From Spirochaetaceae bacterium (GTDB taxonomy: Bacteria > Spirochaetota > Spirochaetia > SZUA-6 > Bin103), in contig JAPPGB010000032.1 in assembly GCA_028821475.1 (NCBI GenBank), positions 1 to 64,000 of the forward strand: a stretch of DNA of 64,000 nt. The letters run 5' to 3'. The first letter of the stretch is position 1. The number at the start of each line of letters is the position of its first letter. The notes under the pieces were generated by a model. The model ran no database searches and had not been told where the DNA came from. It was given only the letters and a program-made list of their open reading frames with translations. The position numbers were made by a program, and so were the translations under genes. Shown here piece after piece: positions 57,219 to 63,618 of the stretch.

Positions 57219-58385
57219 TCAGCCGGCCACCGTTTCCCAGGAGCCGCTGTCCCAGGAGCGCGCCGCCGCCTGCTGCACGCGCGCCACGGCGGCGGCCGCC
57301 GCCAGCGATCCACGCCCCGGCGCGCCGGCCACGACCGCGCTGAGAAACTCCGCCAATTCGATGGTAAGCGTGTCGTCGTAGCCGATGCCGATGCCGGCGC
57401 CGGGGTTGAAGCGGCCGTGGTAGGGGTGCTGCGGCCCGCCGATGGCGGTGGTAAAGCCGTCACCGGCCGCGCCGTCGTCGCCGGCCAGGCGCACCTGCAG
57501 CTCGTTGAGGCGCTCGAAGTCCCAGGCCAGCGCGCCGCGCCGCCCGTTCACCTCGAACGCCATCTGGCACTCGGGGCCGAAGATCACCCGGCACGCCTCC
57601 AGGGTGCCGCGCGCGCCGCCGGCGAACTCCACCAGCATGCCGACGTAGTCCTCGTTGGTGACCGGGCCGGTAGGGCCGCCGGCCTTGGCGGAGAAGTGGG
57701 TGCCCTCGCCGGGCGTGGCCAGGGGACGCTCGGCGATGAAGGTGTGCCGCTGGCTCACCACGCGCCGGATCGGCCCGGCGATGAAGTGCGCGGTGTCGAC
57801 CACGTGCGAGATCAGGTCGGCCAGGGTGCCGCTGCCGGCCTGCTCGCGCCGGAAGCGCCACGACAGCACGCCGTTCGGGTCGCGCCCGTAGCCGCTGAAG
57901 AAGCGGCCCCGGTAGTGGGTCAGCTCGCCGAGCCTTCCGGCGTCGATCAACCGCCGCGCGTGCTGCACCATCGGCGCGAACACGTAGTTGTAGCCCACCC
58001 CGCTGACCACGCCGGCGCGCTCGGCCGCCGCCGCCACCGCCAGCGCGTCCTCGGGACTGCGTCCCACCGGCTTCTCGCAGAACACGTGCTTGCCGGCGTC
58101 GATTGCCGCCATCGCCATCGTGCGGTGCAGGAAGTTGGGCGCGGTCACGTCCACCACGTCGACGTCGTCGTCGGCGACCGCCTCGCGCCAGTCGGCGGTG
58201 GCGCGGGCGAAGCCGTAGTCGCGCTGCGCCGCGTGCCGCCGCGCCGCCACCTCGTCGGCGCACACCACCAGCCGCGGCTCCAGTCCGCGGTCGGCAAACC
58301 GATGCCGAGCCTGCAGATAGGCGCGGCTGTGCGCCTCTCCCATCCAGCCCACCCCGATCACAGCGATGCCCAGCTTCCCGCTCAT
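57219..58385 (-). CDS. Gfo/Idh/MocA-family oxidoreductase
   Basis: The 388-residue protein has the N-terminal NAD(P)-binding domain GIAVIGVGWMGEAHSRAYLQ and the conserved HVFCEKPVGRSPEDA (Glu-Lys-Pro) near residue 100. A C-terminal domain with GSGTLADLISHVVDTAHFI follows near 175, where the catalytic Asp/His are expected. Members oxidise sugars, inositols or their derivatives. ATG 58385 fits the family. It forms an operon with the MFS gene and is divergent from a second gene of the same family. Confidence 0.9.
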   Translation of the reverse strand: MSGKLGIAVIGVGWMGEAHSRAYLQARHRFADRGLEPRLVVCADEVAARRHAAQRDYGFARATADWREAVADDDVDVVDVTAPNFLHRTMAMAAIDAGKHVFCEKPVGRSPEDALAVAAAAERAGVVSGVGYNYVFAPMVQHARRLIDAGRLGELTHYRGRFFSGYGRDPNGVLSWRFRREQAGSGTLADLISHVVDTAHFIAGPIRRVVSQRHTFIAERPLATPGEGTHFSAKAGGPTGPVTNEDYVGMLVEFAGGARGTLEACRVIFGPECQMAFEVNGRRGALAWDFERLNELQVRLAGDDGAAGDGFTTAIGGPQHPYHGRFNPGAGIGIGYDDTLTIELAEFLSAVVAGAPGRGSLAAAAAVARVQQAAARSWDSGSWETVAG

Positions 58386-58589
58386 CTCGACGCTATGATC
58401 GCACATTCCGGGCGGGCCGATCCCGCGTCCCGCGGCCGACGGAGGAATCAGCCGGGCGCCGTCACGAACTCGGCGATGGTGCGGGACCATGCGCTGATCT
58501 CGACACCGGCCAGGTGGACCTTGCGGCCCGATTCCCGCCGTTTCGCGAGACGGCTCCTCCAACGGCACGCCGCGTATGGAAACTGGCGT

Positions 58590-59558
58590 ATGCTATGGGG
58601 CGTGGAAACGGAACTGAGGGTGGGATTGGTGGGCTGCGGGCCGCGGGCACACAACCATGCACGCCTGGTAGCCCGGATGGAAGGCGTTCGGCTGGAGGCG
58701 GTGTGTGACCCGCTGGCCGCGCCGCGCGGCAGGCTGGCGGATGAGTTCGGCATCGGGCGCCGCCACGGGCGGATCGACGAGATGCTGGAGGACGCGCCGC
58801 TGGATGCGGTACTGGTCAACGTGCCGCCGCACCTGAACGCGGCGGCGGCTGCGGAGTGCCTGGAAGCCGGTGTCGACACCTTGGTGGAGAAGCCGCCGGG
58901 GCTGCACGTGGCCGAGACCCGTGCCCTGCGCGCGGCGGCGGCGCGCAGCGGGGCGCGCTGCATGGTGGGCTTCAACAGGCGCTTCAACCCGCTGATCCGG
59001 GAGGCGAAGCGGCGCGTCGCCGAACGTGGCCCGCTGGTGACGGTGGTCGGGGAGTTCCACAAGAACCTGGTCGAGCTGGAACGCCAGGGAAGGCTCGCCG
59101 AGCCGACGCTGGCGCGGTTCTTCTACGAGACGCCGATTCACGCGCTGGACTGCGTGCGCTGGCTGGCCGGCTCCCCGGTGCGGGAGGTGCACAGCTTCGC
59201 GCGGCAGGCGGTGTCGCGCCACCGCGATGCGTTCGGAGCGCTGATGCAGTGCGACAACGGGTGCATCGTGCACCTGGTCGCCAACATCACCGCCGGCGCG
59301 CGGCTGGAGCGGTACGAGATCCACGGCGCCGGCATCTCCGCTTACCTGGAAGGGGTCAAGCGCGGGCACGTGGTGGCGGACGGCGAAGTGACCGAACTCG
59401 CCGTCCCCGGCACCGGAACAGGGGCCGGCGGCACCCTGGAGCAGGACCGCTACTTCTTCGACTGCATCCGCAACGACCGGCCCATCGAACTGCCGGCGTG
59501 CGACCTGGACGAGGCGGTCGCCACCATGGAACTGATGGCCGCCATCCACGGCGACTGA
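58590..59558 (+). CDS. Gfo/Idh/MocA-family oxidoreductase (short form)
   Basis: The 322-residue protein begins LRVGLVGCGPRAHNHARLVA, a Rossmann loop, has VDTLVEKPPGLHVAETRALR with the Glu-Lys-Pro motif near residue 100, and IHALDCVRWLAGSPVREVHS near 185. ATG 58590 or GTG 58602 could be the start; no ribosome binding site is seen, and TATGCT directly overlaps ATG 58590, so a leaderless GTG start is possible. It is divergent from the longer dehydrogenase across about 200 bases. Substrate unknown. Confidence 0.85.
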   Translation: MLWGVETELRVGLVGCGPRAHNHARLVARMEGVRLEAVCDPLAAPRGRLADEFGIGRRHGRIDEMLEDAPLDAVLVNVPPHLNAAAAAECLEAGVDTLVEKPPGLHVAETRALRAAAARSGARCMVGFNRRFNPLIREAKRRVAERGPLVTVVGEFHKNLVELERQGRLAEPTLARFFYETPIHALDCVRWLAGSPVREVHSFARQAVSRHRDAFGALMQCDNGCIVHLVANITAGARLERYEIHGAGISAYLEGVKRGHVVADGEVTELAVPGTGTGAGGTLEQDRYFFDCIRNDRPIELPACDLDEAVATMELMAAIHGD

Positions 59559-59747: not shown

Positions 59748-61493
59748 TCAGCGCGCGACGGCCTCAGCGACCGGTGACACCGCGGGGGCGAGCGCGGCGG
59801 GCTCGTACGGCTCGGCGGCCGCCTGCGCGGCGATGCTCCGGTTGAGCGCGGATATGAGCGCCAGCGCCGAGGCCTTGGCGATGTTCGGGTTGGTGCCGGC
59901 GCCGAAGCACTGGATGCCGTTGCCGGAGGCGATCTGGATGTAGGCGATGGCGGTGGAGTCGGTGCCCTGCCCCAGGGAGTGCTCGGAGTAGTGAGTCAGC
60001 CGGAAGTCGGCCAGGCCCGCCTTGCCGAGGGCGTCCTTGAGGGCGTCGATCGGTCCGTTGCCGCTCCCCTCCAGCACCATCCGCACGCCGTCCCGGACTA
60101 TGGTCAGCACCCCGTCCATCCGCGAGCTGTCATCGGCCGCGGTGGCGATGGCGTAGTCGATGAACCGTACCGGCTGATCGGCGTCCAGGTACTCGGTCTC
60201 GAACGCCTGCCAGATCTCCTGCGCCTCCACTTCGCGTCCGGTGCGGTCGGTGAGAGCCTGCACCACTTGGCCGAACTCCGGCTGCATCGTCTTGGGTAGC
60301 AGGCAGCCGAACTCGGCCTCCATGACGTACGCCACGCCGCCCTTGCCCGACTGCGAGTTGATGCGGATGATCGCCTGGTAGGAGCGCCCGACGTCGGTCG
60401 GGTCGATCGGCAGGTAGGGCACCGCCCACAGGGAGTCGGGTCCGTTGCCCTGCGCCGTCATGCCCTTGTTGATGGCGTCCTGGTGGGAGCCGGAGAAGGC
60501 GGTGAACACCAGCTCCCCCGCATAGGGATGGCGAGCGCCTACCGGGATGTCGGTACAGTAATCGGATACCTCGATCAGGCGGCCGAGATCGTGCAGGTCG
60601 AGTCCCGGATCGACCCCCTGGGTGTACAGGTTGAGCCCGACGGTGACGATGTCCACGTTGCCGGTGCGCTCGCCGTTGCCGAACAGCGTGCCTTCCACCC
60701 GCTCCGCCCCGGCCATCAGGCCCAGTTCGGTGGCCGCGACGCCGGTTCCGCGGTCGTTGTGGGTGTGCAGGCTGAGGATGATGCTGTCGCGGCGCCGCAC
60801 GTGGCGCAGGAACCACTCGATCTGGTCGGCATACACGTTGGGCGTGGCCAGCTCCACCGTGGCCGGCAGGTTGATGATCATGCGCCGCTCGGGACTAGGG
60901 TCCCATGCCTCGATCACCGCGTCGCATATCTCCACGGCGTAGTCGAGCTCGGTGCCGGTGAAGCTCTCCGGAGAGTACTCGTACACCACCTCGGTGTCGG
61001 TGCGCTCCGCCAGCTCGCGCACCAGGCGGGTGCCATCCACCGCTATGGCGCGGATTTCGGCGCGGTCCATGCCGAACACCACGCGCCGCTGCAGCGTGGA
61101 GGTGGAGTTGTACAGGTGCACGACGGCCCGCGGGGTGCCCTCGATCGCCTCGAAGGTGCGCCGGATCAGGTGGTCGCGCGCCTGGGTGAGCACCTGCGGA
61201 TAGACATCGCCGGGGATCAGGCCGCGCTCGATCAGGGTGCGCGTGAATTCGAACTCCACCGCCGCGGCGGACGGGAATCCGATCTCGATCTCCTTGAAGC
61301 CGATGTCGGTCAGGAGGCGGAACATGCGCAGCTTCTGCTCCAGGTTCATCGGGTTGATCAACGCCTGGTTGCCGTCGCGCAGATCGACGCTGCACCAGAT
61401 CGGCGCCTGCTCGATGGTACGGCTCGGCCACCGGCGGTCCGGCAGGTCGATGACCGGGAAGGGTCGGTACTTGGTGATCGTTCCTCGCTGCAT
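59748..61493 (-). CDS. leuA: 2-isopropylmalate synthase
   Basis: The 581-residue enzyme joins acetyl-CoA to 2-oxoisovalerate, the first committed step of leucine synthesis. It has WCSVDLRDGNQALINPM (catalytic Arg-Asp, about residue 35-45), the metal-binding SLHTHNDRG, and the FGNGERTGNVDI segment near 265. A C-terminal regulatory LeuA dimer domain follows (about 430-560), including GSGNGPIDALKDAL. The length and N-terminus fit the long, actinobacterial-type LeuA. AGGAG six bases upstream selects ATG 61493. Expression is probably controlled by the leucine attenuator immediately upstream; the regulatory domain suggests feedback control by leucine as well. Confidence 0.95.
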   Translation of the reverse strand: MQRGTITKYRPFPVIDLPDRRWPSRTIEQAPIWCSVDLRDGNQALINPMNLEQKLRMFRLLTDIGFKEIEIGFPSAAAVEFEFTRTLIERGLIPGDVYPQVLTQARDHLIRRTFEAIEGTPRAVVHLYNSTSTLQRRVVFGMDRAEIRAIAVDGTRLVRELAERTDTEVVYEYSPESFTGTELDYAVEICDAVIEAWDPSPERRMIINLPATVELATPNVYADQIEWFLRHVRRRDSIILSLHTHNDRGTGVAATELGLMAGAERVEGTLFGNGERTGNVDIVTVGLNLYTQGVDPGLDLHDLGRLIEVSDYCTDIPVGARHPYAGELVFTAFSGSHQDAINKGMTAQGNGPDSLWAVPYLPIDPTDVGRSYQAIIRINSQSGKGGVAYVMEAEFGCLLPKTMQPEFGQVVQALTDRTGREVEAQEIWQAFETEYLDADQPVRFIDYAIATAADDSSRMDGVLTIVRDGVRMVLEGSGNGPIDALKDALGKAGLADFRLTHYSEHSLGQGTDSTAIAYIQIASGNGIQCFGAGTNPNIAKASALALISALNRSIAAQAAAEPYEPAALAPAVSPVAEAVAR

Positions 61494-61532
61494 AGGGTTC
61501 TCCTTATTTTCTTCCATCGGCGAAAAATGGCG

Positions 61533-61582
61533 AAAAAAAAGCCCAGGTTCGCAGTTGAGCGCGTCAACTGTGAGCCTGGGCT
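61533..61582 (-). terminator. Intrinsic terminator of the leuA attenuator
   Basis: On the minus strand AGCCCAGG and CCTGGGCT, then TC/GA and CAGTTGA/TCAACTG, form a long stem with two mismatches and loop CGCGC. It is followed at once by eight T residues. It lies between a leucine-rich leader peptide and leuA and would stop transcription before leuA. The leader sequence GCCTGGGTT (61637-61645) can pair with the 5' arm of this stem, forming an antiterminator. Confidence 0.9.
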
Positions 61583-61605
61583 GCGGCTTTTGCGCTACGC
61601 CGTCG

Positions 61606-61707
61606 CTACATGCGGTCCCCGGCGGAGCACGCGACAACCCAGGCCCCTAGGCCCAGGAGGGTGAGAAGCAGGTTGCGTAGCAATGTATCAAGCTGCCGCA
61701 TGTCCAT
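61606..61707 (-). CDS. leuL: leuA leader peptide
   Basis: A 33-residue reading frame starts MDMRQLDTLLRN and continues LLLTLLGLGAWVV, with nine leucine codons in 15 positions, including the codons CTA, TTG and CTT. It ends 24 bases before the terminator stem. When charged leucyl-tRNA is scarce, a ribosome stalled on this run would free the downstream GCCTGGG segment to pair with the terminator arm and let transcription into leuA continue. The peptide itself is not expected to have a function. ATG 61701 is an alternative start. Confidence 0.85.
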   Translation of the reverse strand: MDMRQLDTLLRNLLLTLLGLGAWVVACSAGDRM

Positions 61708-61723: not shown

Positions 61724-61753
61724 AACCTACACCGCCCCGGCCATCCTTGGCAA
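61724..61753 (-). promoter_or_regulatory. Promoter of the leuA leader
   Basis: TTGCCA (61753-61748) and TAGGTT (61729-61724) are 18 bases apart on the minus strand, with the leader ATG 17 bases further on. The position fits transcription of the leader peptide and attenuator, with a short untranslated region. Confidence 0.5.
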
Positions 61754-62735: not shown

Positions 62736-63618
62736 GTGATTCATCTACCTGATTCGACGGCAGATGCTGGCACGGCGATTGCGGGGGTAATCGCGGCATT
62801 GACCGACAACGGCACAGGTGTGGCCGGCATGGGATGGCCGTGGGACCGCTCTCCGGTCACGATCATGCCGGTCCGAGTCGCCGGACCGCGTGGCGCCACG
62901 ACCTACGACGTGGTGCAGGGCCTGCTTTACGCCGCGGGACTGGACAATGACGCCGGGACCCGACCGCCCAGACCTGCCAAGATCATCAATCTGAGCTTGA
63001 CCGAAGCCGTTCCCGGACCGATCGATCAAGTCTTGGAGGACGCACTGCGCCGGGTGACGGAAGCCGGGCGCAATCGTGGTGGCCGCGGCGGGCAATCACG
63101 GCTCTGCCGTTCGCGCGCCGGCCAACTCCACTTACACCGTGGCGGTGGCGGGGGCGAATGCGAAGGGTTCGCTGGCGCGGACCTCCAACTATGGTCCTGA
63201 AATCGACGTCGTCGCACCGGGCGGGGATCCTTCGAGTGAGATCCCGACGCTCGGCGTGGGCGGCGCACCCGACATGGCTCGTTGGATTGTACGTCCTGAC
63301 CACGGAACCTCCATCGCCGCCGCGTACGTGAGCGGCGCTCTGGCTTTGCTCGCCGGCATCGATCGGTCGCTGACCTTGGGTGAGGCGCGGGGGCTGTTGG
63401 CTTCCGCTGCCGACGACCTGGTAGCCCGGGGAGAGAATGATCGGCTTGAGTCGGAGTTGTTGGACGTATTCACCCTATTTGGCTCTTATCCGAGGCAGCG
63501 CATCGAGCGGCTTGCCTATCGACGCGCACGCGGTGTCAGGGCTGCGGCGATTGGACCGGGCGAGCGGGCGGTAACGCGTCGGCCGACGGTGCTGGCGGAA
63601 CTCCCAGCTACGGGATGA
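62736..63618 (+). pseudogene. Subtilisin-like (S8) protease remnant: truncated, frameshifted, catalytic His lost
   Basis: The first frame (from 62736) reads DAGTAIAGVIAALTDNGTGV and IMPVRVAGPRGATTYDVVQG, then AKIINLSLTEAV. The second frame (to 63618) continues VVAAAGNHGSAVRAPANSTY and DHGTSIAAAYVSGALALLAG. An extra G in the run at about 63068-63071 joins them out of frame. The Asp region is missing upstream, and the HGT motif of subtilases is AGT here, so the catalytic His is absent. The Asn of the oxyanion hole and the Ser are still present. Confidence 0.8.

Follow-up and report, generated by a model that had tools for sequence, protein, structure and literature searches.

A candidate leucine-responsive transcription attenuator in front of leuA in a spirochaete family, and comparable arrangements across the Spirochaetia

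The locus described here raises the question of how leuA is controlled in a spirochaete. It lies in a stretch of 64,000 nt from a marine Spirochaetaceae bacterium, referred to below as the window, for which a first-pass annotation had claimed a complete leucine attenuator before leuA. Judged from the sequence, all the parts of such a device are present and conserved, being kept in all four genomes available from the host family (f1; G000 to G003). We consider it probable (roughly 0.88) that the region is a ribosome-mediated transcription attenuator which reads the supply of leucyl-tRNA and controls leuA.

The gene (59748–61493, minus strand) encodes a 2-isopropylmalate synthase of the TIGR00970 (yeast-like) type (745.5 bits against a cut-off of 697.4), and its product also matches NF002991 (839.7 bits). 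The closest named LeuA records are those of Spirochaetaceae bacterium bin103 (92% identity) and of an uncultured Spirochaetaceae bacterium (76%). A Shine-Dalgarno sequence, AAGGAG, was read from the sequence at 61500–61505 (minus strand). LeuA carries out the first committed step of leucine synthesis and would be the target of the attenuator. In G003 the same locus sits on a 1.65-Mb contig and is thus not a stray fragment. No comparable leader-plus-terminator was found in the host family upstream of leuC (four genomes) or ilvB (three genomes), the ilvB of G003 having one frame with five Leu codons upstream and no terminator after it. In the window, leuA is adjoined at 57219–59558 by two GFO/IDH/MocA oxidoreductase genes, one on each strand. 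At 62736–63618 on the plus strand, a Subtilase domain (PF00082) is divided between two overlapping frames, which may reflect a frameshift or an assembly error.

Directly before leuA on the minus strand there is a short frame (61606–61707), confirmed to the base, with the translation MDMRQLDTLLRNLLLTLLGLGAWVVACSAGDRM. It has 33 codons from the first ATG and 31 from the second (61701); the latter, and not the first, is the start common to all four host-family genomes. No Shine-Dalgarno-like motif was found upstream of the frame. Nine of the 15 codons at 61648–61692 are leucine codons (CTT TTG CTA CTG CTT CTC CTC CTG CTA), at codons 5, 8, 9, 12, 13, 14, 16, 17 and 19 counted from 0, which agrees with the number given by the annotation. 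The part LLLTLLGLGAWVVAC resembles a signal peptide, and the frame could thus be read as the gene of a small secreted lipoprotein, having a Leu-rich signal peptide and a lipobox-like VVAC, with the terminator marking the end of the gene. The cysteine recurs in G002 (VVAC) and G001 (VAAC) but is missing from G003 (AWVARRHAGARM), and this reading was dropped for that reason. Further, just 5–6 residues follow the cysteine, the leader peptide matches no protein family, the leaders of other families have only the Leu run in common, and the conserved Ala-Trp-Val codons coincide with the antiterminator strand described below. We regard a lipoprotein gene as a most unlikely explanation.

The stop codon of the leader frame ends at 61606, and a hairpin starts 23 nt downstream of it (61540–61582, minus strand). 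Folding gave −27.0 to −27.6 kcal/mol for this terminator, and none of 200 shuffles of the stretch 61590–61530 was equally stable (z −4.2). A tract of eight T residues, read from the sequence, follows at 61533–61540 (minus strand). A simple consensus terminator scan listed nothing at 61582–61540, though the fold shows the hairpin; stem mismatches probably take it outside the loop limits of the scan. The hairpin consists of strands 3 and 4, and strand 3, CAGCCCAGGC (61574–61583, minus strand), can pair either with strand 4 to form the terminator or with strand 2 to form an antiterminator. Strand 2, GCCTGGGTTG (61635–61644, minus strand), lies inside the frame at the codons Ala-Trp-Val; its segment GCCTGGGTT at 61644–61636 pairs with GCCCAGG at 61581–61575. 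A possible protector, strand 1 (CATGCGGCAGC, 61692–61702, minus strand), surrounds the second ATG and is pairable with 61638–61628, the 3' part of strand 2, through 11 pairs, of which three are G-U. Its counterparts have 8 pairs in G002 and 6 in G001, and are poor in G003 in the register tried. Support is thus good for the antiterminator and weaker for the protector. The terminator with its eight T residues, the leader segment complementary to the 5' arm and the other countable details of the annotation were all correct.

In all four host-family genomes the order is the same: a Leu-rich frame containing GCCTGGGTT, a terminator and its T-tract, and leuA preceded by a Shine-Dalgarno sequence. 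The annotation had named the loss of the Leu-rich character in relatives as evidence against its reading; the leaders of all four genomes have 6–9 Leu codons, and folding predicted a competing antiterminator in all four as well. GCCTGGGTT is invariant in the four leaders, and the pattern GCCTGGGTT-N35-65-GCCCAGG occurs once per genome, at leuA only, while its backward control has no occurrence in these genomes. A MAFFT alignment of the four leaders misplaced the terminator of G001, and therefore no pair counts were drawn from it. The leaders are also rich in codons which are otherwise rare: CTA makes up 7 of the 32 leader Leu codons compared to 18 of 1809 (1.0%) in window genes (binomial 2.6e-8), and CTT 6 of the 32 (7e-4), with the background taken from 34 window ORFs picked by length and GC3, and with counts that are not fully independent, as the G000 and G002 leaders are close kin. 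Rare Leu codons are found in E. coli leuL as well.

According to the mechanism we propose, RNA polymerase would start just upstream of the Leu-rich leader, which would be translated without a Shine-Dalgarno sequence. When charged tRNA-Leu is short, the ribosome would stall on the Leu run, upstream of strand 2, and the rare CTA and CTT codons should sharpen this response. Strand 2 (GCCTGGGTT) would then pair with strand 3, the terminator would be blocked and leuA would be transcribed. With leucine plentiful, the ribosome would proceed over strand 2, covering or unfolding it, so that strands 3 and 4 could form the terminator with its T8 tract and transcription would end before leuA. The promoter, the translation of the leader, the stalling and the response to leucine are what we infer from the arrangement of the parts.

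Folding of the leader region, a check which the annotation had suggested, gave both the terminator and the competing antiterminator, and the computed outcome depended on the ribosome position. The model placed the leading edge of the ribosome 15 nt downstream of the first A-site base and folded the RNA from there on. For the full window transcript, the antiterminator was part of the MFE structure with codons 6–14 in the A site, including Leu 8, 9 and 12–14; the terminator was part of it from codon 15, and the antiterminator was gone entirely from codon 18. As long as strand 4 has yet to be transcribed, the antiterminator prevails through codon 17 in the window and roughly to the end of the Leu run in all four relatives. 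With full transcripts, the antiterminator appeared in the MFE structure at Leu codons in G000 and G002, at scattered positions in G001 and never in G003, and switching in the latter two would therefore have to be kinetic. Without a ribosome, too, the window transcript favours the antiterminator while strand 4 is absent, so that the folding does not support a clean default-off state.

Another sensor, such as a T-box or a different RNA or protein, could in principle act on the same terminator, the Leu run then being incidental. T-boxes are present in the class, 23 of the 61 genomes having a match at E <= 0.001, but RF00230 was unmatched in the four host-family genomes (G000–G003), and a T-box as the regulator of leuA was rejected on that ground. 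No Rfam family reached its gathering score in the window, and scanning at the gathering score and at E <= 5 gave nothing relevant in the window or the leader, with leader matches at chance level only. A sensor of this kind appears extremely improbable. RF00512, the Leu_leader family, had weak matches in 6 of the 61 class genomes, none of them over the cut-off and none in the host family.

The attenuator arrangement is not confined to the host family. Among 394 genomes of the class, 123 have a TIGR00970-type LeuA, with 124 leuA places; two of these places (G164 and G147) were excluded because the 5' end of the gene is missing, leaving 122 upstream regions. By a strict test (at least 6 Leu in 10 codons, then a terminator below −14 kcal/mol), a Leu leader with terminator was found in 51 of the 122 regions and in 1 of 244 dinucleotide shuffles. 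By a lenient test (at least 5 Leu in 10 codons, and a terminator) the numbers were 73 of 122 and 4 of 244, while 49 of the 122 genes had no leader-plus-terminator even so. By family, the lenient test was positive for all regions in f1 (4/4), f2 (5/5), f11 (4/4), f13 (3/3), f23 (1/1), f27 (7/7), f32 (1/1), f35 (2/2), f37 (4/4), f40 (4/4) and f44 (1/1), for some in f17 (3/6), f18 (1/2), f29 (23/52), f31 (1/12), f41 (2/4) and f43 (7/9), and for none in f26 (0/1). The other LeuA type provided a natural control, and no such frame was found at any of its 10 class loci (L021–L030). The arrangement thus occurs in most spirochaete families possessing a TIGR00970-type leuA. The annotation had held that a spirochaete would be an uncommon place for such control; the host is a spirochaete, yet 51 of 122 regions in its class pass the strict test. 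In f31 (12 leuA loci, e.g. L010, L113 and L117–L121) the Leu leader is nearly absent, and the LeuA of L010 groups with Clostridium.

Whether the leader and the terminator arm belong together could be assessed across these loci. Of 73 leader-terminator pairs, 72 were compared with shuffled leaders, the gap being too short in one, and in 29 the leader paired with its own terminator 5' arm better than the shuffled leaders did (p <= 0.05). These comprise 26 of 50 pairs outside family f29, including 4 of 4 in the host family, and 3 of 22 in f29, where the antiterminator signal is weak. In an arm-swap analysis of 26 leaders, one per genus outside f29 and with L182, L184 and L190 omitted as spurious-looking, pairing with the own arm had a mean energy of −14.8 compared to −12.5 with permuted arms, and none of 20,000 permutations was as good. 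The result persisted after double centring and after removal of the host family, and vanished with reversed leaders; the 3'-arm control was not fully flat, having a smaller excess (236 of 20,000). The 5' arms vary, with CCCAGGC in f1, CCCGCTGC-like arms in many leaders and GCCATGGG in f27 and f11; the strands have thus changed together. This co-variation is the strongest evidence for what appears to be a selected pairing between leader and arm.

The co-variation of strands 2, 3 and 4 across genera also argues against a device resembling that of actinobacteria, in which the Leu run would pair with the leuA Shine-Dalgarno sequence and control translation, the terminator being secondary. In actinobacteria the Leu-rich leader of leuA belongs to a pseudoknot, the 'LEU element', and doubt has been cast on classical attenuation there (PMC1262725); the actinobacterial precedent cited in the annotation was accordingly not a clean one. 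Inspection by eye shows that CTC-CTN codons give CTCCT, the complement of AGGAG, in G000 and G003 and, at a shifted position, in G001, but CTCCT is absent from G002, and a strong terminator with a T-tract intervenes in all four genomes. Such control of translation thus seems very unlikely here. In the window the two segments lie at 61660–61651 and 61505–61500, and resemble the base stem of the LEU element. The present locus and the actinobacterial one are alike in having a Leu-rich frame before leuA, and differ in that the LEU element is a pseudoknot with Shine-Dalgarno pairing (PMC1262725) and the present locus has a terminator.

For the attenuator reading, it is of interest where transcription may start. 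In the window, a −35-like hexamer TTGCCA (61748–61753, minus strand) is separated by 18 nt from a −10-like TAGGTT (61724–61729, minus strand), a weak match of 8 of 12 consensus positions, with the first ATG 16 nt and the second 22 nt downstream of the latter. The nearest relative keeps the promoter position (TTGTCA-18-TAGGCT), and the window transcript would have its 5' end roughly 10–16 nt before the leader start. Promoters were surveyed at 52 of 53 strict leaders, L153 being omitted since its frame is probably within a longer ORF. A promoter scoring at least 9 of 12 was found upstream of 33 of the 52, a spacer of 17 nt adding half a point to the score, and for 27 of the 33 the earliest in-frame ATG or GTG came 6–9 nt after the −10 box. 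In shuffles, a scored promoter occurred in 163 of 2080 cases, with such spacing in 5 of the 163. Counted by taxa, this spacing was seen in 16 of the 20 genera, and in 11 of the 12 families, that have a scored promoter. A start codon 6–9 nt past the −10 box is at or adjoining the expected transcription start, and these leaders thus look leaderless. Loci L112, L132, L138, L152, L019, L188 and others have TTGACA-17-TANNNT with the start of the Leu leader 6–9 nt later. A Shine-Dalgarno-like 4-mer precedes 9 of the 52 leaders and 40 of the 52 leuA genes, compared to 10% of background 12-nt windows. Among 77 named loci outside the spirochaetes, 31 have a strict Leu frame and 9 of these a scored promoter, with short spacing in 2 of the 9 and 27–58 nt in the other 7. 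In the host family the spacings from −10 to start are 16, 16, 11 and 20 nt, the boxes are mostly weaker and there is no Shine-Dalgarno sequence, which suggests a short 5' end and not a true leaderless start.

With its Leu-rich leader, alternative hairpins and intrinsic terminator before leuA, the region resembles the proteobacterial leu attenuators (E. coli leuL; RF00512). It is unlike them in having strand 2 inside the frame, no Shine-Dalgarno sequence and a leuA of the TIGR00970 type, and no over-cut-off match to RF00512 was found in any of the 61 genomes examined. PMC3847290 describes LeuL before leuABCD of Campylobacter jejuni as a short ORF with rare Leu codons and a short terminated RNA, and proposes antitermination on stalling. 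The window leader shares with it the small size, the rare Leu codons and the place in front of leuA; C. jejuni LeuL was sought via its ribosome binding site (aAGGa), which the window leader lacks, and belongs to a different phylum. Leaderless leaders have been described in attenuation elsewhere. The transcript of Sinorhizobium meliloti trpL begins with the start codon, AUG, of its leader frame (PMC7298713); it differs from the present case in being controlled by Trp, not Leu, and the leaderless starts of the spirochaetes are predicted from promoter positions, the window family having a short 5' end. In Corynebacterium glutamicum ilvBNC, a three-hairpin model with a leaderless leader frame has been presented, in which the first hairpin blocks translation of the leader (PMC11857589), and pairing of strands 1 and 2 could likewise block leader translation in the window. 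The operon and the phylum are different ones.

In a tree of 95 rows the LeuA of the host family stands beside Pseudomonadota (98 SH-aLRT), and in a tree of 54 rows with a mixture model this grouping had a support of 87 (not starred); the reduction from 95 to 54 rows was made by hand, and the sampling as a whole is biased toward the best matches of the window. Other spirochaete LeuA proteins are scattered over several different positions. A constraint keeping the 16 spirochaete rows together was rejected (p-AU 1.3e-6), as was one that grouped the host-family LeuA with four rows from its own order (3.3e-4), hinting at horizontal acquisition of the host-family LeuA (G000–G003; 59748–61493 in the window, and L002–L004). 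A joint transfer of leuA and the switch was not borne out: GCCTGGG/CCCAGGC was found in just 1 of 14 leuA upstream regions of Pseudomonadota or Myxococcota, and far upstream.

Ribosome-mediated attenuation has mostly been described in proteobacteria, Firmicutes and actinobacteria. A search of the openly accessible literature gave no report of a leucine attenuator in spirochaetes. The mechanism is ordinary in kind; of note are the lineage, the spread across the class and the apparently leaderless build of the leaders outside the host family. A more speculative reading, somewhat less likely than not, is that Leu attenuation of leuA is either ancient or repeatedly acquired across the Spirochaetia, as a leaderless switch (TTGACA-17-TANNNT-6 to 9 nt-ATG) which needs no Shine-Dalgarno sequence and whose first hairpin may shut leader translation, and that the host-family leuA came from near Pseudomonadota, carrying or rebuilding the switch. 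If the attenuator reading holds, a phylum with few studied regulators would use attenuation widely for leucine, leaderless in many genera, and leuA would seem to pass between phyla and either retain or regain control of this type. The class survey yields a concrete list of loci at which this can be tested.
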